Source of the DNA: Candidatus Poribacteria bacterium
Lineage (GTDB): Bacteria > Poribacteria > WGA-4E > WGA-3G
Assembly (NCBI GenBank): GCA_022821965.1
Contig: JAJECN010000056.1
Coordinates: 62,001 to 126,000 of the forward strand
Reading direction: 5' to 3'
DNA length: 64,000 nucleotides
In this document: one piece after another, positions 12,754-33,751 of the stretch
Layout: each line of letters opens with the position of its first letter
Position numbering within the stretch: position 1 is the stretch's first letter
The notes under the pieces: model-generated
What the model was told of the DNA's origin: nothing
What the model saw: the letters and a program-made list of their open reading frames with translations, nothing else
Databases searched by the model: none
Program-made: the position numbers and the translations under genes

Positions 12754-13811
12754 AACGCTTGATTTTTGAAGATATATACAGTTGGGGGGGCTTTAGTCCG
12801 GAGCGACAGATAGATTTTAACGGGCATTTGTGGATACGCCCCGACGGAAACGTCCTTATAGATCCGGTTCTAATGTCTGACAATGACCGAGAACATCTGA
12901 TGGCACTTGGCGGGGCGAAGTCAATTGTGCTGACCAATGCCGATCATGAACGCGAAGCGGCGACATTTCAAGAATGGACAGGCGCCGATGTGATTGTGCA
13001 TGAAGCCGATGCGGATGCGTTGAACATCACACCGACGAGAACGATTAGGGATCGAGAGGCGATTGTGCCGGGTTTGCATGCTGTCCATCTCAGTCATGGA
13101 AAAAGCCCTGGTGAAATCGCACTCTATTTTCCAGAGAAACAGACCGTCCTGTTCGGAGACCTCGTAGTGGGCGAACCGATGGGAGCACTGACGCTGCTTG
13201 CCGATGGTAAACTGAGCGATCCGCCTAAGGCAGCACTCGAATTGCGCAAAGTCTTGGCACTCCGCTTCAATACGATTCTCGTCGGTGACGGACATTCCAT
13301 CTTTAAAGATGCGCGACAGCACCTCGTTGATTGCCTGCAAGCGCGTCGAGACATCTACATTAATCGAATCCATGTCGATGAAATAGAGTGGCAGTATAAA
13401 AACGCCCCTCCTCCTTACGATTTTGAGGACAAAGACATTGATCCGCTCATCGGTGGCAAAAATTTAGGGTATCGTGTTATTCGGCTGCAACCGGGTAAGA
13501 TGAGTTTCCCGATGCATTTTCACAATTTCGGGGAAGAGATGTGCTATGTGATGGAAGGTGCCTGTACGCTCAAAACGCCTCGAGGTGATGTGGAAGTCCA
13601 ACAAGGGGATTTTCTCGCGTTCCCACCCGGCACAATCGGCGCGCACAAGTTTGTAAATAGCAGCGATGCCCCAGTCACGTTATTCATTCTTGGTACGACC
13701 ACACCACACGACGTGAGCGAATACCCTGACTCCAACAAAGTCCTGCCTTATGTCGTTGGGAAGATTTACCGTAAAGACCCAAGCCTGAGCTATTGGGATG
13801 GAGAGGTTTAA
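12750..13811 (+). CDS. metallo-beta-lactamase-like domain fused to a cupin
   Basis: A 353-aa two-domain protein. Residues 1-215 follow the order of the MBL fold: DGNVLIDPVL, LTNADHEREAATF, VHLSHGKSPGEIALYF, LFGDLVVG and ILVGDGHSIF. The metal motif HxHxDH is degenerate (LTNADH), keeping only the D and last H. Residues 235-330 are a cupin: MHFHNFGEEMCYVMEGAC with ligands H, H and E, then GDFLAFPPG and GAHKFVN. The fusion may be an intracellular sensor or an enzyme for a small sugar-like molecule. Coupled by a 4-nt overlap to the discoidin-like lipoprotein gene. Confidence 0.75.
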   Translation: MKRLIFEDIYSWGGFSPERQIDFNGHLWIRPDGNVLIDPVLMSDNDREHLMALGGAKSIVLTNADHEREAATFQEWTGADVIVHEADADALNITPTRTIRDREAIVPGLHAVHLSHGKSPGEIALYFPEKQTVLFGDLVVGEPMGALTLLADGKLSDPPKAALELRKVLALRFNTILVGDGHSIFKDARQHLVDCLQARRDIYINRIHVDEIEWQYKNAPPPYDFEDKDIDPLIGGKNLGYRVIRLQPGKMSFPMHFHNFGEEMCYVMEGACTLKTPRGDVEVQQGDFLAFPPGTIGAHKFVNSSDAPVTLFILGTTTPHDVSEYPDSNKVLPYVVGKIYRKDPSLSYWDGEV

Positions 13812-13862
13812 GTAGAAAATCTCTGTGTTCGCCGAGGTCCCGTGCCTCGGCGGATCCAATGG

Positions 13863-15230
13863 TTAAGTCTCTCTACCTTTCAATCTACGCACCCTTTGAT
13901 TTTCCTTTGCTCGCGCATCTGCTAACTCTGGCTCGACAATCGCGCGCAGTGCAACTTCCATTTCATTACGTATCGTTGCATATTCAGACTTTGGTGCCAG
14001 GTCATCGTTCTCCAACGGATCAACCCTTACATTGAACAATTGCGGCTCGCTTCCGACGTAATGACACAATTTGTAATCCCCGCGCTTGAGCATGAAACCG
14101 GCGTTAAGCATCCCCATGTGATGGTATTCTGAAAAGACGGTTCGTGTTGTCTCATCTGCTTGGTGTCTGGTGATCTCCAACAAACTGTTGCCTGGTAAAT
14201 CAGACGGCGTTTCCAAATCGGCGATTTCCAATAAGGTCGGTAAGACATCTACCAAAGAAACGTTTTGTGCCACGCGACCGGTCTCGCTGGAAGGTAGGCG
14301 CAGCATTAATGGTACTTGCACTGCTGGTTCGTAGAAGCATTGCTTCTGCCAGATCCCGTGGTGCCCTGCCATCTCACCGTGATCGCTGGTATAGATGACG
14401 ACCGTATCCTCGCGTAATGGCGACGTATCAATTGCTTCAAGTATCCTCCCAATTTGGGCATCAAGAGACGAAACAAGGGCGTAATAGGAGGCTAAGGCAC
14501 AGCGCACAACGGCTTCAGGTGGTGGAATCTCGTTCCGCCACGCCCAACGGTGGTGTTGGATGATGGGGTGTTGAGATTCAAGCGGTTCGTTCCACGTGGC
14601 AGGCAGTTCAAGCGCGTCCGGGTCGTACAGTGAATAGAATTCAGGTGGTGCAATCAGCGGAAAGTGTGGATGCATGAATCCGCAATAAAGCAGAAACGGT
14701 TTGTCATCTGGTGATGCCGCTTTCTCACGAAGGAAATCAACTGCCAAATCTGTGACCTTTCGATCATATCTCGTGTGTTCGTGGTCCCCGGGGCCGCATT
14801 CGGCAACATGCGAATTGGAACCGCGCCGCGCTTCCAGAGTGCGTCGTGGTGGACGACCAGTTGTGTGCCTCCACCGAGGCAGATCCTCCAACAAACGATG
14901 AGAAAAGCCGAGCAGGCGATCAGTCCCGTTGAAATGCGTCCGTCCGCATAACACAGTTTCATAATCCGCCTCTGTCAAATGGTCACCCCATGTTGGATAC
15001 TGCCGATCTGCAATCGCTCCCAAATCCCACGCTTCAATTTGGTGCGGATAGCGTCCGGTGAGCATGGATAGGCGTGAGGGTGTACAGATTGGATAATTGC
15101 AATAAGCGTTGTCGAATGTGTAACTCTGCTCGGCGAGGCGGTCAAGATGTGGGGTCTGAACAACGGGATGTCCGCTGTTCCCCATCACAGTCCCCGCGTG
15201 TTCATCTGAGAATAGAAAAACGATGTTCAT
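13863..15230 (-). CDS. sulfatase (arylsulfatase family, formylglycine type)
   Basis: A 455-aa hydrolase of sulfate esters. The catalytic cysteine that must be converted to formylglycine is in CTPSR (about residues 49-53) in the context YPICTPSRLSMLTGRYPHQ. Metal-site residues are in the N-terminal FLFSDEHAG and in YTSDHGEMAGHHG. The C-terminal region HLFNVRVDPLEND-like (QLFNVRVDPLENDDLA) is typical of sulfatases. ATG 15230 is preferred to the TTG one codon upstream. No signal peptide is evident, which suggests cytoplasmic action on imported sulfated molecules. Divergent from a second sulfatase at 15450. An FGE-type maturase is not in the window. Confidence 0.92.
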   Translation of the reverse strand: MNIVFLFSDEHAGTVMGNSGHPVVQTPHLDRLAEQSYTFDNAYCNYPICTPSRLSMLTGRYPHQIEAWDLGAIADRQYPTWGDHLTEADYETVLCGRTHFNGTDRLLGFSHRLLEDLPRWRHTTGRPPRRTLEARRGSNSHVAECGPGDHEHTRYDRKVTDLAVDFLREKAASPDDKPFLLYCGFMHPHFPLIAPPEFYSLYDPDALELPATWNEPLESQHPIIQHHRWAWRNEIPPPEAVVRCALASYYALVSSLDAQIGRILEAIDTSPLREDTVVIYTSDHGEMAGHHGIWQKQCFYEPAVQVPLMLRLPSSETGRVAQNVSLVDVLPTLLEIADLETPSDLPGNSLLEITRHQADETTRTVFSEYHHMGMLNAGFMLKRGDYKLCHYVGSEPQLFNVRVDPLENDDLAPKSEYATIRNEMEVALRAIVEPELADARAKENQRVRRLKGRET

Positions 15231-19540: not shown

Positions 19541-21283
19541 ATGGATAACGAAGTCATGAGCAACGAAGAGAACTACGCTTTTGATGTGGCAGGCTATCTA
19601 CACATTCCGGGTGTTCTCAGCCAAGAAGAGGTGGCAGCACTCAACGCGGCATTAAATGCAATTGAAGATAGTGAGATGCTGTTAGGCGGATCCAGTCCGC
19701 ACCGCGAATTGTTCCGCGATCTATTGGTACATCCGAAATTGGTATGGTATTTGAACCAGATTGTGGGACACGGTTTCCGACTTGATCAAGCACCTCAATT
19801 GTTGGGGAATCGAGAGGGTGAAGTCGGCACAACACTTGTTGGTGGCGATGAACCGAGAAATCCGTCCTTGGCATACCGCCAACAAAACGGTCAGCGGCGT
19901 TGTCAGGGCGTGAAAGCGTTCTGGGCATTGGAAGACATCGCAGAAGGGGACGGTGGATTGATTGTCGTTCAGGCGAGCCACAAGAGCAATGTTGAAACAC
20001 CCCACGACTTGGCAACCGGCGTTGATGATATGGGGTTAGTGGTACAACCCGAACTGAAAGCAGGCGATCTATTCTTGGTCGCGGTACCTACGCTCCAAGG
20101 CTTTCGACCGTGGAAAGATGAGTCTAAAAGGTTGTTGGCGTATTGGTATGCCGCGCGTGCGGCGGTTCAATCCAATCCAGTTGGACCTTACTCGGAAACG
20201 GAATCTTTGCCGGGATGGGCAGACGAGGCGACACCTGCGCAAAAGGCAGTCATGTATGTCCCTGGGTATAAGGGTTCAAGTCCGCCACCGGTGATAAATA
20301 CAGATGGCGAAGAAACATGGGTGGAGGAAGACTCGTCTGTCATTCATCCATCAATTTATATCCGCGACCCGGATTCGGGGATTGATGAGAAAGAGTTTTA
20401 CTTTTGGGATCTGAATGGGTATGTGGTGGTGCGTGGTTTAATGGATGAGCAATGGCTTGCAGAAGCGAATGAGGCGGTGGATAAATTCCAGGATCGGATC
20501 GTCGTAGGCGAGGAATTAGCGCGCGGGTCGATAAGTCAGGCTGGCACAGGGCGACCGCTCCTGCCGGGTTTGTTAGACCTACCTGACCCCTATAACGCTC
20601 CATTTCGACGCATGATTGCACACCCCGCGGTGGTGCAGCGACTCAATTGGATGGGCGGTAGCGGCTATCGCATGGGTGGCGCGACCGTATTCTGCGCGGT
20701 TCAGGGAACGTCGGGGCACTCGCTGCACGATGGAAATGAACCGATGACACCCTCACGCGGTTATGCTTTTAAGAACGGACGCAGTTATGCTGAAACCGTC
20801 ACTATTACGTGGCAATTACGCGATGTCGAGCCCGGACTGGGCGGTTTTGCCTGTGTGCCTGGGTCTCATAAGACGCAGTACTCCATGCCCCGCGGGATTC
20901 GGACGTGTGATGATACCATGGGGTTGGTCGTACAACCCGTTATGAAGGCAGGGGATGTTCTCTTCTTTATGGATGGCGGTTGCACACACGGTGCCTTAGC
21001 GTGGAAGAATCCAATTCCCAGACGCGGGGTACTGATTAAGTATCAGTCGAAAAATGTCAATTGGGGTGGCGGTGTGATTGATCCGCAAGACCGGTGGGGC
21101 GATATGGTTGAAGATATGACCGAGGAACAATTCGCTGTCATGCGGGGACCTGAACGGGATGGTCGTCACCGAACTGTACCGCGATTGGTTGTAGAAGATG
21201 GACAGGTGTCCGTTTCCTACGATCCAGCAGGGGATAGTTATGCCTCAAAGCATCGACGAAAACCCGGTGAAAAACGCGAGTAA
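19541..21283 (+). CDS. tandem two-domain PhyH-like protein with degenerate first domain
   Basis: A 580-aa protein, twice the normal PhyH length, with two homologous halves (about 8-235 and 280-545). The halves align through LGG/MGG, DEPRN versus NEPMT, GLIVVQASHKS versus GFACVPGSHKT, and MGLVVQPELKAGDLF versus MGLVVQPVMKAGDVLF. The second half keeps candidate iron ligands (H393, H396 and D397 in HSLHDG, H483 in CTHGALAW). In the first half the corresponding positions read TTLVGG and TLQGF, so the histidines are gone. The N-terminal half is therefore probably a structural or binding pseudo-domain. AGGAG precedes ATG 19541. Monocistronic, ended by a strong hairpin. Confidence 0.82.
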   Translation: MDNEVMSNEENYAFDVAGYLHIPGVLSQEEVAALNAALNAIEDSEMLLGGSSPHRELFRDLLVHPKLVWYLNQIVGHGFRLDQAPQLLGNREGEVGTTLVGGDEPRNPSLAYRQQNGQRRCQGVKAFWALEDIAEGDGGLIVVQASHKSNVETPHDLATGVDDMGLVVQPELKAGDLFLVAVPTLQGFRPWKDESKRLLAYWYAARAAVQSNPVGPYSETESLPGWADEATPAQKAVMYVPGYKGSSPPPVINTDGEETWVEEDSSVIHPSIYIRDPDSGIDEKEFYFWDLNGYVVVRGLMDEQWLAEANEAVDKFQDRIVVGEELARGSISQAGTGRPLLPGLLDLPDPYNAPFRRMIAHPAVVQRLNWMGGSGYRMGGATVFCAVQGTSGHSLHDGNEPMTPSRGYAFKNGRSYAETVTITWQLRDVEPGLGGFACVPGSHKTQYSMPRGIRTCDDTMGLVVQPVMKAGDVLFFMDGGCTHGALAWKNPIPRRGVLIKYQSKNVNWGGGVIDPQDRWGDMVEDMTEEQFAVMRGPERDGRHRTVPRLVVEDGQVSVSYDPAGDSYASKHRRKPGEKRE

Positions 21284-21294
21284 TGATGGATACA

Positions 21295-21341
21295 TTATCA
21301 CTTACCGTTCCAGTGCCAAATCCGCGAACGGTAAGTGATAA
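21295..21341 (+). terminator. intrinsic terminator-like hairpin
   Basis: A perfect 16-bp inverted repeat, TTATCACTTACCGTTC (21295-21310) and its complement at 21326-21341, with a 15-nt loop. It lies 11 bp after the tandem PhyH stop and just before the end of the convergent gene at 21353, so it can serve both. Confidence 0.7.
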
Positions 21342-21352
21342 CGCAAAACAAC

Positions 21353-21637
21353 CTAAGGAAGTTCTTCAATATCGTTTCCGTTCTCAAGTCTCTTTTTGTA
21401 TTCGTTCTTGAAAATCCGCTGAATCCGCTGAAACTCTTTCCAATTTATAAGACCCAAGAGCACACCTTTCATATCAACGCCGTGTTTATCTTCCACAGTG
21501 TAATACTCAACCCGAATAGTAAACTGATCAAAATTCCTATGGTCGATAGAAATTCTCGATGCCTCCTTAATTTCATGTTGAGTGCCAGAGACTTCCGTTA
21601 TTGTTATATCAACAGGATTATGCCATATAAATAACAT
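21353..21637 (-). CDS. hypothetical small protein
   Basis: A 94-aa protein of unknown function. It contains beta-strand-rich text (HNPVDITITEV, FDQFTIRVEYYTVEDKHG) and a C-terminal amphipathic helix (NWKEFQRIQRIFKNEYKKRL). ATG 21637 is chosen because GAGG lies 6 nt upstream; another in-frame start exists at 21649. It follows the small HTH-like gene (21685-21783) on the same strand, so three short genes may form one unit: 22325 to 21353. Confidence 0.5.
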   Translation of the reverse strand: MLFIWHNPVDITITEVSGTQHEIKEASRISIDHRNFDQFTIRVEYYTVEDKHGVDMKGVLLGLINWKEFQRIQRIFKNEYKKRLENGNDIEELP

Positions 21638-21684
21638 TGTGAACCTCATTTATGAAACGGTGTAAAATTACCAAATACACATTT

Positions 21685-21783
21685 CTATTCGTCTGATTCC
21701 TTCCATTGGGCGTATTTCTGAAGCGTGCGGATATCTATATTCAACGATTCAGCTGCTTCATGTAAGGGAGGGTATTGTCTCAT
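21685..21783 (-). CDS. 32-aa helix-turn-helix-like small ORF
   Basis: Translation gives 32 residues: MRQYPPLHEAAESLNIDI then RTLQKYAQWKESDE. The pattern (L.EAA..L.I...TL.KYA) resembles the first helices of MerR/excisionase-type HTH domains. Its ATG overlaps the stop of the upstream gene (ATGA at 21780-21783), so it would be translationally coupled. It may be a real micro-protein or the truncated start of a regulator. Confidence 0.4.
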   Translation of the reverse strand: MRQYPPLHEAAESLNIDIRTLQKYAQWKESDE

Positions 21784-22325
21784 TTGAGGATAAACCACAT
21801 CAATAACAAGCCGATGCCAAAGAAACCTATCCCGAAACCAATGGCGGTCCATCGCCACTTGCGAAGTTGTTTAAACCGCTGATGTGCTACATTGTTCAAC
21901 GCCTTGATCTCTTCTTGTAAATTCAGTGCCAATGCGGATTGACGCATATCAGGATGCCAACGTGCTACTCGACTTTCAAAAGTCACTCGTGGGATCTCCA
22001 CGAACCAGTTATTTCGGCGGTTCTCGGCAAAAAACCAGCTATCTGGATCTGTGCCTGTCGCAAGGATACCGAATTGCGCGTCGGTCGCAGAGAGAAGCCC
22101 CTTCAGATATTCGCGAGTCTCTAACACAATGCGCTCGGTGACAGGCACCTCACAGACAACAATAGCAACGAAATGGTTGGCATCGCAAACCACATAATCT
22201 GCAACACTATCGACCCCGGGAACGCCGAATTGGATCGGTAGATCTCTCAAAATCTCTTTGTCTGAAAACGGTAGCGTCGCTAAGTAGGTAGTAACGGCTT
22301 GTTGTATACGGTTGCGTAGCATCAT
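21780..22325 (-). CDS. HsdR-N-like nuclease-fold protein with C-terminal membrane anchor
   Basis: A 181-aa protein. Residues 35-105 (DSVADYVVCDAN, FVAIVVCEVPV, LKGLLSATDAQFGILATGTD) follow the core of the type I restriction HsdR N-terminal/PD-(D/E)XK domain. D43 and E59 are present, but the expected E-x-K reads E-V-P, so the catalytic lysine is missing. A helical linker (about 125-155) leads to one transmembrane segment near the C-terminus (AIGFGIGFFGIGLLLMWFIL). It may be an inactive nuclease fold tethered to the membrane. The following 32-aa frame overlaps its stop. Confidence 0.55.
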   Translation of the reverse strand: MMLRNRIQQAVTTYLATLPFSDKEILRDLPIQFGVPGVDSVADYVVCDANHFVAIVVCEVPVTERIVLETREYLKGLLSATDAQFGILATGTDPDSWFFAENRRNNWFVEIPRVTFESRVARWHPDMRQSALALNLQEEIKALNNVAHQRFKQLRKWRWTAIGFGIGFFGIGLLLMWFILK

Positions 22326-22386
22326 AAATTCTTTTGGGTGTAGGTGCTATGATAATGAATACCTTTTCTATGTTTTTGTCCATAAA

Positions 22387-22499
22387 GCAGGTTGTTTCTG
22401 GAGACTTGCACAACCTGCAAAGCAAGCATGAACGTAAATTTTCCCGACGGACCGCTTGTAAACAGACGAATATGCCCTCTAAAGTAGAGGTTCCGTCTG
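22387..22499. repeat. two small hairpins
   Basis: GCAGGTTGT (22387-22395) pairs perfectly with ACAACCTGC (22410-22418). A second structure at 22463-22499 has an outer CAGACG/CGTCTG stem and an inner CCTCT-AAAGT-AGAGG stem. Both lie upstream of the minus-strand gene at 22325 in an otherwise gene-free stretch. Confidence 0.5.
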
Positions 22500-22765
22500 C
22501 CCGTTAATCAGCGTGCAGGGTTTACTGAATGCGTAATGACTGTTGTCCGTTTCTCTGTGATATGCCACTTATCTGCTTGGGGTGCCTCTAACTTCTTTAT
22601 CTCCGTGGTCCCTTTTATGAGTAGATTTGTAGATGGGAAGCCACATATATCTTCCCATCTACTATAGCAATTTTCGAGTTGACCGTCGGTGTTGAGTAGA
22701 CCATCTACCCCTAACCGCCACCGCCAATTGAACGGGAGAACTAATCGCGAGGCAGTTAAATGCAC

Positions 22766-23466
22766 TATTGAGTTATATTAAGTCAATTCCGATAATTATG
22801 AAAGTTAAATAATGATAAATCCTGTATCTAACTGGTAAATCATACGATATTTTCAGGCGAAAAGCAATTATGTCCATAAAATTGCTAATTTTCTTTGGAA
22901 AATGCCTGATACTTCAGAATTTTACCCAGACTTTTTTATACAAAAGTGGATATGCCTACTTTTTAACGAATTTAGGGTTCGCTTATGTTTTAAGCATTTT
23001 GCCTTAAAATATCTTGTAGATTTCAAGGACCCGATATAGATATGGGTTTGTTAGAGGCTTGACACAAAACTTGCTAAAGTTGCTTCCTTTAATGCTGATG
23101 GAAAAAGAAGAAAGTGCAAGTTCGGATCTGATTTGAAATATTTATTGGATAGGTCTTGAAAAAATAGAGGTAAATCACAAAACGTTTTATCAGGGTATTA
23201 CTCTATCTATTATTCTAAATCAAAAAATTTGTCTTAATATAACTGGAGATTAAACGCTGATTACCATTGACTTTATATCAATTTAAAATTTGACCAAAAA
23301 TGAGGTTTTTGATAATATACAATATTAACTTATGTAAAAATATGAAGTTTGTGAACACTTCATAACAGGTGTTTTTTTCCAGCGTGAGTTTGCCATAGAC
23401 ATGTTGGTTAAGCTGAAGCGAAATCTCAGTTCAAAAATAAAAAACTGTAGTTAGGGTAGTATACCA
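22766..23466 (+). other. 700-bp AT-rich non-coding leader with promoter and operator-like dyad
   Basis: No credible gene is seen. Close to the right end, TTGACC (23290-23295) and TAATAT (23313-23318) form a 17-bp-spaced promoter candidate. Just downstream, TATGAAGT (23341-23348) and ACTTCATA (23357-23364) form a perfect dyad with 8 bp between arms, in the position of an operator, about 100 bp before the 1127-aa gene. The remainder is AT-rich with homopolymer runs and no clear RNA structure that I can defend. Confidence 0.5.
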
Positions 23467-26400
23467 ATGATGATTAATACCTTAGAAGATCTGATTGTAC
23501 GCTGCCACCAACGGCACGAGCAGCCCCTTAAACAACGTAAGACGACTGTAACACGGCTGCCTTACAAACGGCTTCCCTATTACTTCACAGTCCATTGTGC
23601 GGACAGATACCCTGTGCTGCTTCAAGACTTGGAGGCATCAAGCATTTCCTTTATGCCGATAGGACGCGCACCTGGCGCTGACCGTCCGCCGCGTGATTTT
23701 GGAGGGAAACGTTTCTTGAAACCTCAACAGGCGGTAGACTGGGAAGCCATCCAATGGGCGAAGTCGTGGGGGATTCATGTGTATACTGGGGTTCCTTCGG
23801 CACGCGATGGCGCGCCCTGGCATGATATCGACTTTAAATATGAAGCTATTTGTGCCGCACCGGATGCCGTTCTTGCTTGTGTTCAAGCACTTGTTGATGC
23901 CGTTTCAAACCCGTTATTGACGCTGTTAGCGTCTGGTGGGTTGCGCTTTTCTTGCAGGATATCGGGGTACCTGCACCCGAACACCGAGCAGGCACGGTTG
24001 TATGTTTATAAAGAGACCACGACGGCAGAGAATCCACACCCACACGACGCGTATCTTGAAATCCTCGGCGAGAAAGGACACACTTGCTGGGATGCGCGCG
24101 CTGAAATCCTGCTTGGAGATTTGTTACATCCGCCTGTAATTTCCAAAGAGGTTTTCTTTGCACCGATTGATGCCCTTCGCGCTGTCCTGCGCGAACCTGT
24201 TTCGCAAAACATACAACACAAGGAGAATATCCCCGACGCGCCATACTCTCTCGGATCGGGCAAACTTGACCTCGCCAAAGAGGCGTTTTTTAAGCGTGGG
24301 TTTTCTTATGTCAGACAAGAGGATGGATATCACTATTGGCACCAACAGGGGCGTGAGAGTGGTAACACGGAGGTATCATTGTGGGAGAACGAAGAGGGCG
24401 TGTGGATATGCGCATCTACGCCTGATACTGGGCTGCCTATGGAGGCAACACTCATAACAGATGTTTGGAACGGCACTGGCATCTTGCCACCGATTCCTAA
24501 GACGGGACTGCCTATAGATGATAAGGTACTTGCCATTCGGGAAGGGGAACTGAGTCCATTGGCAATAAAACGTCTTCCTCCAGTGTTACATAAGTCGAGT
24601 ACCATTGAGAAGATTGATGAAACACGAGAAGAAATTAGCGTTCGGGTGCAGCGTGCTTTTGATAGAAACGCGCGTGTTGTTGGGTTTATTCCGGATATAG
24701 GTTCGGATAAAGCGGGTGAAATAGAATCCCTTCTGCAAAATAGTGAGGTAATCTACGGGCAGGATGCTGATTTTGCGGCAAAAGTGGATCAACGTTTTCA
24801 AAAGCGAAATGTGGGCTCCGTCCCACGCTGGCGGGATCGGATGTATCTCTGGGAGGAAGTGAAAGATATCCCGGTTGATGTGCGCATGGCAACACCCTTT
24901 CAACGTGGCAACGTCTGCGAGGATGCTCAGCGGTGCGAAGCCCTTGAGGAAAAAGGGGGGGATCCGAGTGAAATTATCTGTCCGGAGTGCCCCGTCTATA
25001 CAGCCTGTCAGGCGCGTGGCTATCTATCGCAATTCTCTACATTACAAACTGCTAAAGCACAAATACTGGTAGATTTTCGGATGTTTTTGGATCCACAATA
25101 CGCGAAAATAGTGGAACAATTTCTTGAAGGGCGCGATGGAACACATCCACTTTGTGTTATTAATATCACGAGAGAGAATCAACTGTTTCTTGAATGTGGA
25201 CTGTCAAAAACCACATTGGAGGCGTGGGTTGCCAATTGGCGAGGCAGTGCATTAGGCAACTTTGCCATACTCCTGCTAAATGCAGTAGGAATCAAAGATA
25301 AATCCCATGCCCACTCCATTAAACGCCTCCGGACAGTGATGCAGACGTTTGAATGGCTGGAAGAAGAAATTATCCAACAGATGTGCCACGTCAATGTCCA
25401 GGGCAGAGTGGTTGCACGAGGTGCGATTGATGCAGAGACCGGAGAAGAATTAGCACGCTATACCATCGAGTTTGAGCGAGGAATTTCTGCTTATATTCCT
25501 TTGGACGCTGCGGCTTTGGATAGATTGACAGCACAAGAGATGCCTGTTTTTGAACTCGACGCTTTTGTGCCGAATGAAGACATGAAAATCTTGATGTCGA
25601 TAGCCGATGCTATCAGTCTGGGTATCTTGGATACGGCGACTGTTGAAAACATTGAGGAGTTCCCAACGGTTTGTTCGGATCCAAACTGGACGTTCTGGCA
25701 TCAATTCAAACGTTTCTTTGTCCATTACACGCGGGACGCTGATGCCCCGATGCGATGGGATGGCGAAGTCCTACAGTTCTGGGTGCCGCCGGTTCTACAT
25801 CCAAGTGTCAGAAACCTTTTGGTCACCTCGCCGGCTCTCTACGGCGAGCATCTACGTCGGCCGTTCTCGAATGAGGAGACCGAGATTCTTCCCGCCCAAC
25901 CGATAGTGTGGGGTCCCGGAAACCGCGTTTTCCAGATTCGCACCGGTATCTATCCACGGAAGACAATTTTAGATCTCAGTAACACGTGGGACGTTCTTGG
26001 CGTGTCTGAAACAGGACAGCACATTTTTTGGAGAATCCAAGCTGAAATTGAAAGGGATCGAAATATTAAGCATGGGATTATAACCCATCTTTACGCAGTT
26101 GAACAGGTGAAGGATATCGCGAAGAATGAAAACGTCTGTTTCTTGACAGGTTTTCGAGTGGTGGAAGGATTAGAAACCGCTTTTCAAGAGGCGCAGGTCA
26201 TCTGGATAGTTGGCATGCCGGACATGGAACCCTGTATCGTTTTGGAGCGCACTCAGATCCTGTTTGGAAACGACGAGGAACCTCTTTCTTATCAAATGGA
26301 ATCTGAGTCCTACCTTTACAAAGACGAGCGCGTCCAGAGCCTTTATGAAAAAACAGTTGTCCATGTATTCGCAGAGATTATAGAACGGGCTCAGTTGAAC

Positions 26401-26850
26401 CGTTTGGCAAACAAGAAAGTTATGTTGCTTACAGGGTTGCGAATTCCTGGGATCACGGATAGGCCTGAAACGCTCCTCTTTGATTGGGAAGATTTCGATG
26501 TTGCTGGTGGGTTAGACAAACTCACTGAGGTGATAGCGACACGTCAACGATTTGAGACGGAACGCGACAATCTAACGCCTGAATCCAGCAGACGAGAGGT
26601 AGAAAGGGTTCTCGGGTGCTCCCCAAGGCAGGCCAACCGAATGTTGCAAAGGCTGAGGGGTGGGAAGGTACGTGTAACTTTCCGCGAGCAAATTCTCGCG
26701 CTTCTCGCCGATGGAGAGAAAACAACACCAGAATTCGTGGCGGCGATTCAAGGACACCCAAAAGCAATAAATACAGAACTCACGCGCCTTGTAAACATGG
26801 GTCAGATTGTAAAGGTCAAGCGGGGTTTATATAGACTTCCAAAGGTTTAG
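23467..26850 (+). CDS. 1127-aa protein of unknown function with Cys cluster and C-terminal HTH/winged-helix region
   Basis: I do not recognise a named family. The N-terminal part (about 1-300) includes LLASGGLRFSCRISGYLHP and a CWDARAEILLGDLLHPP stretch. A cysteine cluster follows: C484, C490, C505, C508, C514 (CPECPVYTACQARGY), fit for an Fe-S cluster or zinc. The region 930-1035 (FEIIERAQ-like: FAEIIERAQLNRLANKKVML) faintly recalls the last helicase motifs of superfamily 2, but no Walker A GxxxxGK[ST] or DEAD/DEAH box is visible. The C-terminus has two HTH-like segments, SRREVERVLGCSPRQANRML and a winged helix ending VKVKRGLYRLPKV. Nucleic-acid binding is therefore likely; a degenerate primase-helicase-like replication or mobile-element protein is one possibility. 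It stands alone behind an unusually long leader. Confidence 0.6.
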   Translation: MMINTLEDLIVRCHQRHEQPLKQRKTTVTRLPYKRLPYYFTVHCADRYPVLLQDLEASSISFMPIGRAPGADRPPRDFGGKRFLKPQQAVDWEAIQWAKSWGIHVYTGVPSARDGAPWHDIDFKYEAICAAPDAVLACVQALVDAVSNPLLTLLASGGLRFSCRISGYLHPNTEQARLYVYKETTTAENPHPHDAYLEILGEKGHTCWDARAEILLGDLLHPPVISKEVFFAPIDALRAVLREPVSQNIQHKENIPDAPYSLGSGKLDLAKEAFFKRGFSYVRQEDGYHYWHQQGRESGNTEVSLWENEEGVWICASTPDTGLPMEATLITDVWNGTGILPPIPKTGLPIDDKVLAIREGELSPLAIKRLPPVLHKSSTIEKIDETREEISVRVQRAFDRNARVVGFIPDIGSDKAGEIESLLQNSEVIYGQDADFAAKVDQRFQKRNVGSVPRWRDRMYLWEEVKDIPVDVRMATPFQRGNVCEDAQRCEALEEKGGDPSEIICPECPVYTACQARGYLSQFSTLQTAKAQILVDFRMFLDPQYAKIVEQFLEGRDGTHPLCVINITRENQLFLECGLSKTTLEAWVANWRGSALGNFAILLLNAVGIKDKSHAHSIKRLRTVMQTFEWLEEEIIQQMCHVNVQGRVVARGAIDAETGEELARYTIEFERGISAYIPLDAAALDRLTAQEMPVFELDAFVPNEDMKILMSIADAISLGILDTATVENIEEFPTVCSDPNWTFWHQFKRFFVHYTRDADAPMRWDGEVLQFWVPPVLHPSVRNLLVTSPALYGEHLRRPFSNEETEILPAQPIVWGPGNRVFQIRTGIYPRKTILDLSNTWDVLGVSETGQHIFWRIQAEIERDRNIKHGIITHLYAVEQVKDIAKNENVCFLTGFRVVEGLETAFQEAQVIWIVGMPDMEPCIVLERTQILFGNDEEPLSYQMESESYLYKDERVQSLYEKTVVHVFAEIIERAQLNRLANKKVMLLTGLRIPGITDRPETLLFDWEDFDVAGGLDKLTEVIATRQRFETERDNLTPESSRREVERVLGCSPRQANRMLQRLRGGKVRVTFREQILALLADGEKTTPEFVAAIQGHPKAINTELTRLVNMGQIVKVKRGLYRLPKV

Positions 26851-26984
26851 AAAGGAAGCATTCAGTATTATCATTCCATTCTCATTCACCGCGTCTACAT
26901 TCCTTATCCTGAACCAACACCACCTTCCGATTCTTGATGGTATCCAGACGCATAGGTCCCCAAGAAAGGGCGGATACTTTATCG

Positions 26985-27140
26985 TAGATTCTGTAATTAC
27001 TTATACACTCAGCATCGGTGCGGTTAGGAAGGCAGATCACAACCCCTCCTTTATCCCCCTTATCAAGGGGGCAGGTGAGTACACCGCAAAACCGCACCTA
27101 CCGAGGGGTAAAAGTGTGTATTTATTTTTGGAATTTACTA
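26985..27140. repeat. MITE-like palindromic element, copy 1
   Basis: Within the gene-free 26851-27179, nested inverted repeats are seen: outer GGTGCGGTT (27017-27025) with AACCGCACC (27090-27098), inner CCCCCTT-ATC-AAGGGGG (27055-27071). The left flank has TAATTACTTATACAC and the right flank TTTACTATAA. The same flank phrases border the element at 30594-30714, with a different hairpin core. No transposase is nearby. Confidence 0.6.
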
Positions 27141-27179
27141 TAACATATTCCGCCGCTAAAGCAGCGGGAGTCTGTCAAT

Positions 27180-28568
27180 ATGCAATTTAAACATCTCGGT
27201 CAATCAGAACTTGCCCGGAAGATAGCTATTTGGGCACTATCAATCGGATTTCTATTTTTCGGGTTTTTCTCTAACACATGGCGAGTTGCTGATCAGAATT
27301 GGTTTGCGACACATCAGAAAGACACCGAAGCGCATATCATGGGAAGGATGGTCAAATCTCGACAAGATGGTATCTTTTCAGCGGGTGGTCTGAATGGTTG
27401 GGGAACAGCGAAAAGTACTGATGCGGAATGGATACCTTCAACAGCACTGGGACCCCAATATACCGCTTATCTTTACAAACTCTCCTTTGAAAAATTTTCA
27501 ACCTACAATTCACAACCAGGCGGGCAAGGGATGATTTTTAGTCTACTTGATAGACTTATTCCGTTATCGCCACAAATCAAATTAACGTTATTCTATATAT
27601 TGACTGCTTTACTTTCTGCAGGCGCGTTGACATTCATCGTAAGTTGGTTCTATGAGGAATTTGGCGGGTGGGTCGCGATATTTGTTATCGGTTCGGCGGT
27701 GCTTTCCCAATGGTTGACAGTTTTTGGTAAGAATCTTTGGTGGAGTCTATGGGCATTCTACCTGCCAATGATTGTCGTCATGTACTTCCTTAAATTTAAA
27801 CGCCACAGCCTCGCGGAGAACCGTCAGTTCATCAGGTTTGGAATCCTAATCTTTATCGCTGTTTCTATTAAGTGTTTCATCAACGGCTATGAGTATATTA
27901 CAACCACTCTGGTAATGATGATGGTGCCGTTTGTCTATTATGTTATTCTCGACAAGTGGAGTCGTCATCAATGTGTGAAATGGACGCTTGCAGCCGGACT
28001 CGGATCAGGCGTGGCGATTTTTTTCAGTCTCGTGATGTTATGTTTCCAAATCGGTGCTGCCAAGGACGGGTTTATGGATGGGGTTGCGCATGTGATCTGG
28101 TCTTTTGGGAAGCGCACATACGGAGAGGCGGAGGACTTTCCACCGGTATATGCTGCCAGTCTGGAAGCAGGAACGATAGGGGTCGTTGTCACCTACATGA
28201 ACGGTATTTTCTTTGATCTCAACAACTATCTATCTCAAGAAAATTCGTTTGTCTCTAACTCCGTATTGAAAGTTCGCTATATTTACCTAATCGTTCTTTT
28301 TATGTTGATGTCTCCGCTGCTGTTTTTGCGTAGCAATGCAGAGCGACGCCAGCCAGACATTGCATTAATTTGGACGACATGGTTTTCAATCTTAGCACCT
28401 CTATCGTGGCATGTCATCTTCAAGGCGCACTCATATATCCATACACACATGAGTTTTCTGCTGTGGCAGATGCCCTTTACTTTCTTCGGCTTTGCCGTGT
28501 TCGGATCCGCTGTTATCGCCTCACTGAGGAGTGAAAGAAAGCGCAGTTATCCGTTCATACCTGTATGA
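27180..28568 (+). CDS. multi-pass membrane protein, possible GT-C-type glycosyltransferase
   Basis: A 462-aa integral membrane protein with about ten hydrophobic segments. After the first segment comes a periplasmic-type loop with KDTEAHIMGRMVKSRQDGIF and GLNGWG, which resembles the first acidic loop of GT-C glycosyltransferases and polymerases (acidic D-x-E near the first helix). Other loops carry QPGGQGMIF and HAHS-like KAHSYIHTHMSF. The function is inferred only. Its 3' end is followed by a partial duplicate of the last 70 bp, suggesting that the C-terminus was rearranged. The pectate-lyase-like gene follows on the same strand. Confidence 0.55.
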   Translation: MQFKHLGQSELARKIAIWALSIGFLFFGFFSNTWRVADQNWFATHQKDTEAHIMGRMVKSRQDGIFSAGGLNGWGTAKSTDAEWIPSTALGPQYTAYLYKLSFEKFSTYNSQPGGQGMIFSLLDRLIPLSPQIKLTLFYILTALLSAGALTFIVSWFYEEFGGWVAIFVIGSAVLSQWLTVFGKNLWWSLWAFYLPMIVVMYFLKFKRHSLAENRQFIRFGILIFIAVSIKCFINGYEYITTTLVMMMVPFVYYVILDKWSRHQCVKWTLAAGLGSGVAIFFSLVMLCFQIGAAKDGFMDGVAHVIWSFGKRTYGEAEDFPPVYAASLEAGTIGVVVTYMNGIFFDLNNYLSQENSFVSNSVLKVRYIYLIVLFMLMSPLLFLRSNAERRQPDIALIWTTWFSILAPLSWHVIFKAHSYIHTHMSFLLWQMPFTFFGFAVFGSAVIASLRSERKRSYPFIPV

Positions 28569-30518: not shown

Positions 30519-30593
30519 TGAAGTTTAATTTTCCCACCTCGGTCAACATTATAAATACGGTTATTGACAATCCAATAGGCATACGTCTTTGGA

Positions 30594-30714
30594 TTATAGT
30601 AAAACCCATAATTACCTATACACCAGTACAATGGCGAGGATACAATCCTCGCCAGCGGTGGTGGGATGCTTGTACCCTGGCGAACTGTAAACATATTTTC
30701 GGATTTTACTATAA
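30594..30714. repeat. MITE-like palindromic element, copy 2
   Basis: Terminal inverted repeats TATAGTAAAA (30595-30604) and TTTTACTATA (30704-30713) are perfect over 10 bp. Inside is a perfect 9-bp hairpin GGCGAGGAT-ACA-ATCCTCGCC (30633-30653). Left of it stands TAATTACCTATACAC, shared with the copy at 26985. It occupies part of the 590-bp gap 30519-31108. Confidence 0.7.
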
Positions 30715-30777
30715 GATAGACGCACGGGACACTACCCATCCGTTTAACGCCCCTTTCTCCGCACCACTCCATCATTG

Positions 30778-31108: not shown

Positions 31109-33751
31109 ATGAGAACTTTAGTCGTGAATCGAAATCTAATTGTATCAATTTTCGCAGTATTGATGTTGACATATAGCATACAAGGCATTAGTTATGCTCA
31201 GGATCCGCCTGACACCATTGTAGAATTTTCTGATTTAAATTTAGCCAAAGCAGTACGCAGCGCATTGGAACTTGGGACTACTGGTGGGCGTATTCCACTT
31301 CTGAAAATTCCCAAAGCAGAACTCGCAAGACTAACATACTTAGAATATAATAATTATAAGTACTGGGAAACGCCTATAGAACAGAAAATAAGTAATCTAA
31401 GAGGACTCGAACATGCCACGCATCTCAGAGAGTTAAGTCTCTATGGGAATAACCTTTCTGATCTCTCGCCTCTTGCGGGTTTGACGGAGTTGGTGAAGTT
31501 AGACATAAGTCAGAATAAAATCCGCGACCTTACGCCGTTGTCGGGTTTGACACAGTTGGCAAAGTTAGACCTCCGGGGTACACACAGAGTAGACTCCATA
31601 GGCAATGAAATCCGCGACCTTACGCCGTTGTCGGGTTTGACACAGTTGGCGGAGTTAGGACTTGGAAGGAATAAAATCATTGATCTCTCACCTCTTGCGG
31701 GTTTGACGGGGTTGGTGAAGTTGAGCCTCTCGCATAATTATATCACTGATCTCTCACCTCTTGCGGGTTTGACGGGGTTGGTGGAGTTATACCTTACAGA
31801 TAATGAAATCCGCGACCTTACGCCGTTGTCGGGTTTGACACAGTTGGCGGAGTTAGGACTTGAAAGCAATGAAATTATTGATCTCTCACCTCTTACGGGT
31901 CTGACGGAGTTGGTGACGTTATACCTTGTAGGTAACGAAATCCGCGACCTTACTCCGCTGTTGGGTTTGACGGAGTTGGCGGAGTTAAGCCTTGTAGGTA
32001 ATGAAATCCGCGACCTTACGCCGTTGTCGGGTTTGACGGAGTTGGTGACGTTATACCTTGGAAGTAATAAAATCCGCGACCTTACCCCGTTGTCGGGTTT
32101 GACACAGTTGATTTATTTAAGCCTCTCGAATAACCCAATCGAAAATTTCACGCCCCTTGCTGAATTCAAAAATTTAGAAGTCCTATTGTTATCAGGTTAT
32201 GACATCAGCGATTTGTCCTCGCTTCCAGTCCTGCCGGATCAGGCAAGAATACGTATATCGGGGTATGATGATCCATTAACACCCCGTGATATAGCACTTA
32301 TGTCGACTTCGGTGGGGTACACGCCTATAATACTGAATAATAATACCCGTTCGCTTGCGGGCACTCCAGCGAAACACAGTTTTCAATGGGATAGTACTGG
32401 CATAGCGGCTTATATGCTGCTTGCGGAAATGATGGGATGCGGTTTTGCTGATGCTGAAGTGGAATCCAAACATCAAGTTTATGTTAAGACGGAATCGTTG
32501 GGACGTTTGGAAGGTTTTGAGTCGACAACGGTTTGTGGAAGGAAGAGCCGCAGCGATACTTATGGCACTTATGACGCACGTCGTATCACACATCTGCGTT
32601 TTTATGATAAAAGTAGTTCTCCGAATATCCAAGAAATCATCTACAATAGTTACACGCATCAATATGAGTTAGCTGCTCCTAAGTTGATCCCTCCTATTCA
32701 GGATAATACACCTGAGTTGCCGACCGAGACATCTTCAAACATAATTGTTGCGCTTCAACCTGCATCGATTGTATCTCCCGTTATTGGCAAACAATTAACA
32801 TTTACCCTTCACATCACCGGTGGCAAATCGGTCGCGGGCTACCAAACAACTGTGCAGTTTGACACAACCGCCTTGCGTTATGTCTCAGGAGCGAACGGTG
32901 ATTATCTTCCTGCCGGTGCGTTCTTTGTAGATCCGAAAGTAGAAGGGAATCTCATAAAACTCAACGCTGCATCTCTCGCAGGGGAAAGCAATGGAGATGG
33001 CACCCTTGCAACACTTACCTTTGAAGTTATCGCAGCGAAGGCATCCACTTTGACATTATCTGATGTGCTGCTTACCGATAGTGCAGGGGAGACGTTTGTA
33101 CCTCGGATTGAAAACACTCAGATAACTGAATCAACGGGACTCAAAGGTGATGTAAACGGTGATGGGAGCGTTAACATCACCGATCTCGTCTTAGTTGCTG
33201 GCGCATTGGGTAAGACAGGGCAGAATGCTATGGATGTCAACGGTGATAATGTCGTCAACATTGCCGATCTTGTCTTGGTCGCTGGCGCATTGGGTACAAG
33301 TGCTGCCGCTCCTTCTCTATATCCGCAAGCCTTAGAAATGCTCACTGCTATAGATGTCAAACAGTGGCTATCCGCTGCACAGCAATTCGACCTCATGGAC
33401 GCAACGTCACAGCGCGGTATCCTATTCTTACAACAACTCCTCGCAACCTTGACACCGAAAGAGACAGCACTGCTTGCGAACTATCCAAATCCGTTCAACC
33501 CGGAGACATGGATACCGTATCACTTGGCGAAGGATGCGGATGTCACACTGCATATCTATGCCGTGAACGGTACGTTGGTGCGGACATTGGAACTCGGACA
33601 TCAAGCTGCGGGACTGTATCAGAACCGTTCGCGTGCGGCGTATTGGGATGGTAAAAACGCGTTCGGTGAATCTGTGTCGAGCGGTGTGTATTTCTATACG
33701 TTCACGGCAGATGATTTTTCTGCTACGCGGAAGATGTTGATACGCAAGTAA
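31109..33751 (+). CDS. secreted LRR-cohesin-dockerin protein with C-terminal FlgD-like sorting domain
   Basis: An 880-aa exported protein. Signal peptide about 1-31 (ending SYAQD). Residues about 97-364 are some twelve leucine-rich repeats of 22 residues of internalin type (IRDLTPLSGLTQLAELGL). A unique region (about 380-535) follows. Residues about 542-670 match a cohesin-like domain (VGKQL-type start, VAGYQTTVQFDTTALRYVSG, GTLATLTFEVIA). Residues about 680-729 are a type I dockerin with two calcium loops (DVNGDGSVNITDLVLVAGALG-type). The end has LLANYPNPFNPETWIPYHLA and SSGVYFYTFTADDF, a FlgD-like/secretion-linked Ig domain. Carrying both cohesin and dockerin, it could self-assemble or scaffold other dockerin proteins at the cell surface. 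Confidence 0.85.
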   Translation: MRTLVVNRNLIVSIFAVLMLTYSIQGISYAQDPPDTIVEFSDLNLAKAVRSALELGTTGGRIPLLKIPKAELARLTYLEYNNYKYWETPIEQKISNLRGLEHATHLRELSLYGNNLSDLSPLAGLTELVKLDISQNKIRDLTPLSGLTQLAKLDLRGTHRVDSIGNEIRDLTPLSGLTQLAELGLGRNKIIDLSPLAGLTGLVKLSLSHNYITDLSPLAGLTGLVELYLTDNEIRDLTPLSGLTQLAELGLESNEIIDLSPLTGLTELVTLYLVGNEIRDLTPLLGLTELAELSLVGNEIRDLTPLSGLTELVTLYLGSNKIRDLTPLSGLTQLIYLSLSNNPIENFTPLAEFKNLEVLLLSGYDISDLSSLPVLPDQARIRISGYDDPLTPRDIALMSTSVGYTPIILNNNTRSLAGTPAKHSFQWDSTGIAAYMLLAEMMGCGFADAEVESKHQVYVKTESLGRLEGFESTTVCGRKSRSDTYGTYDARRITHLRFYDKSSSPNIQEIIYNSYTHQYELAAPKLIPPIQDNTPELPTETSSNIIVALQPASIVSPVIGKQLTFTLHITGGKSVAGYQTTVQFDTTALRYVSGANGDYLPAGAFFVDPKVEGNLIKLNAASLAGESNGDGTLATLTFEVIAAKASTLTLSDVLLTDSAGETFVPRIENTQITESTGLKGDVNGDGSVNITDLVLVAGALGKTGQNAMDVNGDNVVNIADLVLVAGALGTSAAAPSLYPQALEMLTAIDVKQWLSAAQQFDLMDATSQRGILFLQQLLATLTPKETALLANYPNPFNPETWIPYHLAKDADVTLHIYAVNGTLVRTLELGHQAAGLYQNRSRAAYWDGKNAFGESVSSGVYFYTFTADDFSATRKMLIRK
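31505..32125 (+). repeat. near-identical 66-bp tandem repeats encoding LRRs
   Basis: Units such as AAATCCGCGACCTTACGCCG and GTCGGGTTTGACACAGTTGG recur with very few silent changes across the LRR region. Such identity at DNA level points to recent amplification or gene conversion and predicts copy-number variation between strains. Confidence 0.8.

Follow-up and report, generated by a model that had tools for sequence, protein, structure and literature searches.

A Candidatus Poribacteria protein family probably derived from a plasmid-type primase-helicase that has lost its ATPase motifs

Is a large protein with a helicase-like region and no Walker motifs the debris of a replication enzyme or a protein with a new function? 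This question is raised by a gene in a 64,000-nucleotide stretch of Candidatus Poribacteria DNA (GCA_022821965.1, contig JAJECN010000056.1, positions 62,001 to 126,000; hereinafter the window), which lies on contig C43 of a genome of 5.7 Mb. The gene (23467-26850, + strand) is a genuine open reading frame (ORF) from its ATG, stands alone, as an earlier note on this DNA had stated, and encodes a 1127-amino acid (aa) protein, here P0001. The same note described P0001 as an orphan without a recognisable family and suggested a replication, mobile-element or defence protein that had lost or replaced its ATPase. The orphan status does not hold, given that 38 related loci were retrieved from Candidatus Poribacteria records and that 31 of 60 related genomes contain matches; neither does the lack of a family, because P0001 is one of many paralogs and its two main domains match the PrimPol and XPD/DinG folds. 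There is good support for an origin from a replication or mobile-element protein whose ATPase was lost, because intact, intermediate and dead copies exist and plasmid replication and partition genes adjoin some of them, whereas the suggestion of a defence protein finds no direct support for P0001 itself. We consider it probable that P0001 is a pseudoenzyme that descends from a plasmid-type primase-helicase and is now an ATP-independent DNA-binding factor. The likely ancestral architecture is an archaeo-eukaryotic primase (AEP)/PrimPol domain fused to an XPD/DinG-like iron-sulfur (Fe-S) helicase of superfamily 2 (SF2) and to C-terminal helix-turn-helix (HTH) and winged HTH domains.

This reading rests primarily on comparison with relatives that possess the motifs missing from P0001. 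In P0003 (L109:5488-8571, 1028 aa), all helicase motifs are intact, namely Walker A (AETGAGKN), Walker B (IVDEVD), MSATL and QAVGRARLNR, and the cysteine cluster is present as well; P0001 is 38% identical to this protein over positions 831-1035. The distant SF2 helicase likeness that had been noticed at 930-1035 is real and extends further, with the region 531-1035 following the XPD/DinG fold. The absence of Walker A and Walker B, also noticed earlier, is confirmed by the alignment: P0001 has DIGSDKA (410-416) at the position of the GxGK[ST/N] signature, which is intact in P0003, VINITREN in place of DEAH/DEVD, and VTSPAL and EIIERAQLNR in place of motifs III (SAT) and VI (QxxGR), respectively. 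The features of the gene are the following (evidence in parentheses):

23467..26850, +, P0001 gene, 1127 aa: primase-like domain, ATPase-dead XPD-like domain, HTH, winged HTH (ORF, AlphaFold, Foldseek)
23467..24201, +, AEP/PrimPol-like domain, aa 1-245 (Foldseek to viral primase-polymerases; 34% identical to P0003)
23818..23841, +, AEP motif I region, W118-H119-D120-I121-D122-F123-K124-Y125, with K124 replacing the Glu of the intact relatives (alignment)
23935..23958, +, AEP motif II region, G157-G158-L-R160-F-S-C-R164, Arg for His (alignment; motif definitions in PMC5862659)
24685..24726, +, degenerate Walker A, aa 407-420, FIPDIGSDKAGEIE (FRAETGAGKNYQTE in P0003) (alignment to relatives; relaxed selection)
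24916..25008, +, five-cysteine, Fe-S-type cluster C484, C490, C505, C508, C514 (alignment; low substitution ratio)
25150..25179, +, degenerate Walker B, aa 562-571, LCVINITREN (LCIVDEVDIF in P0003) (alignment)
25174..25671, +, Arch-type region, aa 570-735 (model; named by analogy with the layout of the XPD fold)
25816..25842, +, degenerate helicase motif III, aa 784-792, LLVTSPALY (IGFMSATLN in P0003) (alignment)
25957..26571, +, RecA2-like lobe, aa 831-1035 (model, Foldseek, identity to P0003)
26362..26406, +, degenerate motif VI, aa 966-980, HVFAEIIERAQLNRL (AELIQAVGRARLNRL in P0003) (alignment)
26590..26655, +, first HTH, aa 1042-1063 (Pfam, model, column identity across paralogs)
26668..26847, +, C-terminal winged HTH, AbiEi_4-like, aa 1068-1127 (Pfam, model, column identity)

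The AlphaFold2 model of P0001, built from a 51-sequence family alignment, has a mean predicted local distance difference test score (pLDDT) of 82.3 and a predicted template modelling score (pTM) of 0.72. Its best Foldseek matches in the PDB are XPD (3crv, E 2.7e-10, prob 1.00), then TFIIH XPD and CasDinG (8v44, 7xf1), and a library of viral models yielded DinG-type helicases and bifunctional primase-polymerases. The P0003 model is weaker (pLDDT 67.6), yet XPD was recovered with it as well (9p55, E 5e-12). The P0001 model thus contains domains of the nucleic acid-binding kind that the earlier note had anticipated, and no full-length match to a characterised protein was found. By the order of the parts in XPD, residues 476-530 would be the Fe-S domain and residues ~570-735 the Arch domain. 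At the sequence level, only the C-terminal winged HTH was matched in Pfam, NCBIfam gave no match, PHROGs and PADLOC gave nothing useful, and a search of the PDB with P0001 gave no match. Searches of phages and plasmids with P0001 and P0003 and of plasmids with P0002, another relative described below (all by tblastn), of viral contigs with all three proteins and the family alignment, and of positions 21600-27300 with Rfam were also negative.

How the motor was lost can be traced within the family. Intermediates that are ~55-57% identical to P0001 (L017:9552, L019, L040, L022:9866) have an altered primase motif and keep Walker A and IIDE, which implies that the primase motif and the zinc finger changed before the ATPase was lost. 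In a quick tree of the shared regions, some forks of which are weak, members with Walker A are basal, and a block of 46-48 members that includes P0001 consists entirely of proteins without it. Together, the intact relatives, the intermediates and the dead copies point to a stepwise loss of all helicase ATPase motifs. This loss was not accompanied by a general relaxation of constraint. The ratio of nonsynonymous to synonymous substitutions (dN/dS, Nei-Gojobori) between P0001 and 12 close relatives is 0.22-0.32 for the whole gene, with values of 0.15-0.30 for the cysteine region and of 0.31-0.67 for the stretch that holds the dead Walker A (400-475); mean column identity is 78% in the cysteine region, 71% in the first HTH, 66% in the winged HTH, 65% in the primase domain and 43% in the dead Walker A region. 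Judging by these values, the gene is under purifying selection that is most relaxed around the former Walker A, and the retained parts are the cysteine cluster, the core of the primase fold and the C-terminal DNA-binding domains. A motor under selection would be expected to show the opposite pattern, with Walker A conserved above the cysteine and HTH regions.

The cysteine cluster consists of exactly the five residues listed in the earlier note. All five are invariant in the 56 of 56 family copies that retain the region, and the spacing C-X5-C-X14-C-X2-C-X5-C is constant in 57 aligned rows. Four of them, without C490, are shared with the intact relatives P0003 and L083, and these four (C484, C505, C508, C514) lie between motifs I and II, as in XPD/DinG. 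The beta part of the Arch region (641-735) is absent in 24 of 68 family members, and both this part and the cysteine region are gone in 18 of 68, that is, in 18 of the 26 reduced copies. Joint loss of the two as linked modules was considered and rejected: the deletion borders look shared, so that recombination between paralogs could explain the pattern (sign test, median p 0.06), and these borders suggest paralog recombination as well as deletion.

The family members fall into three size classes (~1130, ~990 and ~790 aa). The matched genomes belong almost all to the genus of the window; the number of matched segments ranges from 0 to 25 per genome, from which we estimate up to about a dozen family genes per genome. 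A search with P0002 revealed further members in a sister genus of the same taxonomic family. The genome of the window itself has one P0001-type gene and one different relative, P0002 (L070:1620-5474, contig C23), a 1284-aa, apparently intact primase-helicase of a different SF2 type (GAAMSTGKS, AIDEVD). Some family copies carry stop codons or truncations, and most are complete frames. At four loci (L016, L017, L071, L072), up to four family genes of unequal length stand in tandem, and one of these arrays is interrupted by a TnpB-like gene (L072:9210-10316).

The C-terminus indeed appears to hold two HTH-type domains, as previously proposed: a weak HTH_23-like match at 1047-1066 (E 0.23, which misses the Pfam threshold), followed by an AbiEi_4-type winged HTH at 1099-1125 (E 1.2e-5, barely past it), both modelled as helices and a wing. 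The recognition helices are conserved like the remainder of these domains (66-68% column identity), so the paralogs probably share one DNA target. We infer that ATP-driven unwinding is gone from P0001 and that DNA binding persists. The loss of the helicase engine, the retention of the putative metal- and DNA-binding parts and the promoter shared with surface-protein genes (see below) together suggest the reuse of a replication enzyme as a DNA-binding protein that needs no ATP. In such a protein, the HTH domains would pick out a site that the paralogs have in common, and the primase fold and the Fe-S-type surface would hold melted or single-stranded DNA at the site so chosen; P0001 would then act without ATP as a regulator, an origin-type binder or a roadblock to replication, with AT-rich leaders like its own as possible sites. 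As for the downstream effect, a regulator and a replication blocker appear about equally likely.

The leader is unusually long, as had been remarked, with 1141 base pairs (bp) back to the upstream ORF, and contains three features:

22765..23466, +, AT-rich leader, 702 bp up to the ATG; fragments of it are found without the gene at other sites of this genome and in the genus
23240..23356, +, shared promoter/leader element of ~120 bp (sequence model R1), also found before leucine-rich repeat (LRR), fibronectin III, cadherin, formylglycine-generating enzyme (FGE) and porin genes
23290..23318, +, predicted sigma-70-like promoter TTGACC-N17-TAATAT, ~150 bp before the ATG; a TG precedes the second hexamer

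The GC content of the AT-rich leader is 29.8%, compared to 49.1% in the P0001 gene. A promoter scoring at least 10 points is present in 33 of 52 family leaders versus 10 of 52 shuffled ones, and its spacer contains a near-palindrome, CAAAAA..TTTTTG. R1 occurs in 32 of 38 genomes, both upstream of family genes and at solo sites (loci L171, L174-L191, L193), and is most expanded in G023 (14 matches) and G008 (12 matches). In 15 of 16 testable cases, solo sites are co-oriented with the downstream gene, which encodes an LRR, fibronectin III, cadherin, FGE-sulfatase or porin-like protein, mostly with a signal peptide-like start; five porin sites look like one orthologous locus. This distribution would fit either a regulon or a spreading promoter. 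If P0001 controlled transcription at its own promoter and at the surface-protein genes that share R1, the co-orientation of the solo sites, the conserved recognition helices and the near-palindrome would all make sense; we nevertheless regard this explanation as unlikely, given that the genome of the window has a single solo R1 copy with no co-oriented gene behind it and that duplication can spread a promoter among genes that are not co-regulated. As a separate observation, the window encodes at 31109-33751 a large secreted LRR protein with dockerin-like motifs, of the same kind as the R1-linked genes, which is not preceded by R1.

The surroundings of the gene are variable, and the stretch concerned is:

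21285..26907, no strand assigned, variable 5.6-kb stretch with P0001, absent where the flanking core genes are neighbors

The core genes on its two sides (ending at 21283 and starting at 27180) are separated by ~115 bp in G032 and lie almost as close in G005, which makes this stretch a variable island; a family copy occupies the same site in G013, G006 and G008. A transposon-like unit with defined ends was considered and rejected: no terminal repeats were found, and downstream homology ends ~55 bp past the stop codon; the region is a variable island and not a clean insertion. The island also encodes a 181-aa protein (21780-22325, - strand) without a Pfam match that is found in ~6 of 38 genomes. 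Scanning of the neighboring proteins (21780-22325, 27180-28568) gave no Pfam match and no AbiEii partner such as an AbiE system would have. Elsewhere in the window, a dispersed repeat of ~120 bp (30590-30720) has 44 matches in the same genome and occurs also in relatives.

Examination of homologs and their neighbors, which the earlier note had proposed, thus uncovered a multicopy family, with plasmid-type genes beside a few loci and none beside P0001. Rep_3 initiators adjoin the members at L026, L027 and L113, ParA those at L035 and L006 and also the related L036 locus, and a ParB-like protein (weak) is found at L114. In the genome of the window, P0002 and a Rep_3 initiator gene lie at opposite ends of contig C23; a circular plasmid was rejected here, because C23 lacks an end overlap and carries chromosomal-type genes. 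The neighbor genes support a plasmid origin of the family, without proving it for P0001. An origin of this kind is also the starting point for the view that P0001 is a host-protective, dominant-negative replication inhibitor, a dead copy of a plasmid or phage primase-helicase that would block related incoming elements by occupying its DNA or partners. The family is patchy, multicopy, gained and lost at variable loci, and descends from mobile element-type replication proteins; distant relatives adjoin SIR2/NACHT and TIR genes, and exapted mobile-element genes serve principally conflict and defence systems (PMC8987985). Such a role still seems rather improbable, since no defence genes were recognised beside P0001 and PADLOC gave no family beyond the winged HTH, there is no anticorrelation with Rep_3 elements, and the recognition helices are conserved rather than diversified. 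Two defence-like neighborhoods of relatives can be recorded in their own right: SIR2-like and NACHT genes, a likely defence pair, ~3.3 kb upstream of intact P0003 (L109:1-2116), and a TIR-domain effector-like gene with a similar neighbor (L107:10743-12509 and 12793-13992) as well as an HNH gene, which all adjoin a 1020-aa family member that holds the same position in three genomes.

The N-terminal domain matches viral primase-polymerases in Foldseek (e.g., A0A6J5S9L8, D6PIK8, R9ZWI1), albeit remotely. Up to an E value of 10, no AEP model of Pfam, NCBIfam or PHROGs, the TOTE type included, matched P0001. Residues W118, H119, D120, R160, R164 and D209 are invariant or nearly so across the family. 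At motif I (hhhDhD/E), P0001 reads D120-I-D122; D120 is invariant and position 122 is acidic in 53 of 75 relatives (43 D, 10 E). The motif II His (sxH) is replaced by R160, as in the intact relatives, and Arg at this motif occurs in DR0530-like AEPs (PMC5862659). For motif III (hD/E), E198, assigned by alignment only, is present in 70 of 75. P0003 carries an AEP-like TDLDFEY motif and a CHNC zinc-finger pair; P0001 reads IDFKY and lacks the finger. P0001 could be a still active primase/polymerase that has lost only the helicase engine and primes DNA at an origin without ATP hydrolysis, in the manner of ColE2-type Rep, which has no NTPase domain and still unwinds DNA (PMC5862659); D120-x-D122, R160, E198 and R211 are kept. 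This is, in our judgement, a doubtful proposition: position 122 is non-acidic in 22 of 75 relatives, none of the 75 family members keeps the adjacent Glu of the four intact relatives, its place being taken by K, T or S, the zinc finger of the intact form is gone in the whole class, and many diverged chromosomal copies per genome are unlike one initiator for each replicon.

That P0001 is functionless debris of a multiplied mobile element is very improbable because, notwithstanding the broken copies, the highly variable copy number and the scattered leader pieces, most copies are complete frames with domain-specific constraint, the cysteines stayed invariant after the ATPase was lost, the promoter is conserved, and no integrase, transposase or terminal inverted repeats of the unit were seen.

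Several points weigh against the interpretation of P0001 as an ATP-independent DNA-binding pseudoenzyme that we prefer. The TM-scores against XPD are ~0.4-0.5 on the target, which is low and indicates a remote match; because these scores are modest, the Foldseek results are fold assignments and not proof of membership in XPD/DinG or AEP. The cysteines could bind zinc instead of an Fe-S cluster. Few loci have Rep_3 or ParA neighbors, and no correlation between copy number and Rep_3 count is seen (rho -0.17, p 0.32). Finally, with both motif I aspartates and E198 in place, the primase site is not provably dead, the sole hints of its death being the drift at position 122 in relatives and the loss of the neighboring Glu.

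The AEP domain, the XPD fold and the HTH are each known in kind. P0001 resembles the XPD/DinG Fe-S SF2 helicases, including CasDinG, in fold and in the order of RecA1, a four-cysteine insert between motifs I and II, an Arch-type insert and RecA2; it differs in the lack of Walker A, Walker B and motifs III and VI, in the added primase-like and HTH domains, and in that several family copies lack the cysteine insert and part of Arch. With the AEP/PrimPol proteins of mobile elements (PrimPol-PV1 supergroup and relatives, PMC5862659), it shares the N-terminal primase fold, the middle helicase, the C-terminal winged HTH and, at a few family loci, the association with plasmid genes, whereas its motif II has Arg instead of His, the second motif I acid is not conserved in the class, no Pfam AEP match is found, and the helicase partner is of the XPD type, which is not mentioned in that work. 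The cyanobacterial CyRepA/CyRepX proteins (SF2 helicase-type plasmid Rep, PMC10899382), to which P0002 may belong in kind, are likewise large Rep-like proteins built on a DEXD/H helicase; P0001, in contrast, has no working ATPase motifs and is chromosomal and multicopy in relatives. ColE2-type Rep is similar in combining primase and HTH parts in a replication protein without a working NTPase, but P0001 retains a complete dead helicase fold and has no PriCT match. The likeness to the AbiEi antitoxin is a generic winged HTH match of ~27 C-terminal residues; P0001 has neither an AbiEii partner nor any other AbiEi domain. No paper on this family, or on a primase-XPD-like fusion, its stepwise inactivation, its amplification or the shared leader was found in a literature search outside of which most subscription journals fell.

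To our knowledge, gene regulation in the Poribacteria symbiont group is essentially unknown. A far-reaching and rather doubtful extension of our interpretation is that a plasmid primase-helicase became, in Poribacteria, ATP-free regulators that control, via the AT-rich leader, themselves and the eukaryote-like LRR, fibronectin III and cadherin surface genes of the sponge symbiosis. The graded natural series, from intact through ATPase-dead to cut-down proteins, illustrates which parts of an XPD-type helicase survive the loss of the motor. With Fe-S-type cysteines that outlast the ATPase, the contribution of the cluster to DNA binding or to structure could be tested separately from unwinding, and the shared leader connects a repurposed replication protein with sponge symbiont-like surface-protein genes in this uncultured group.

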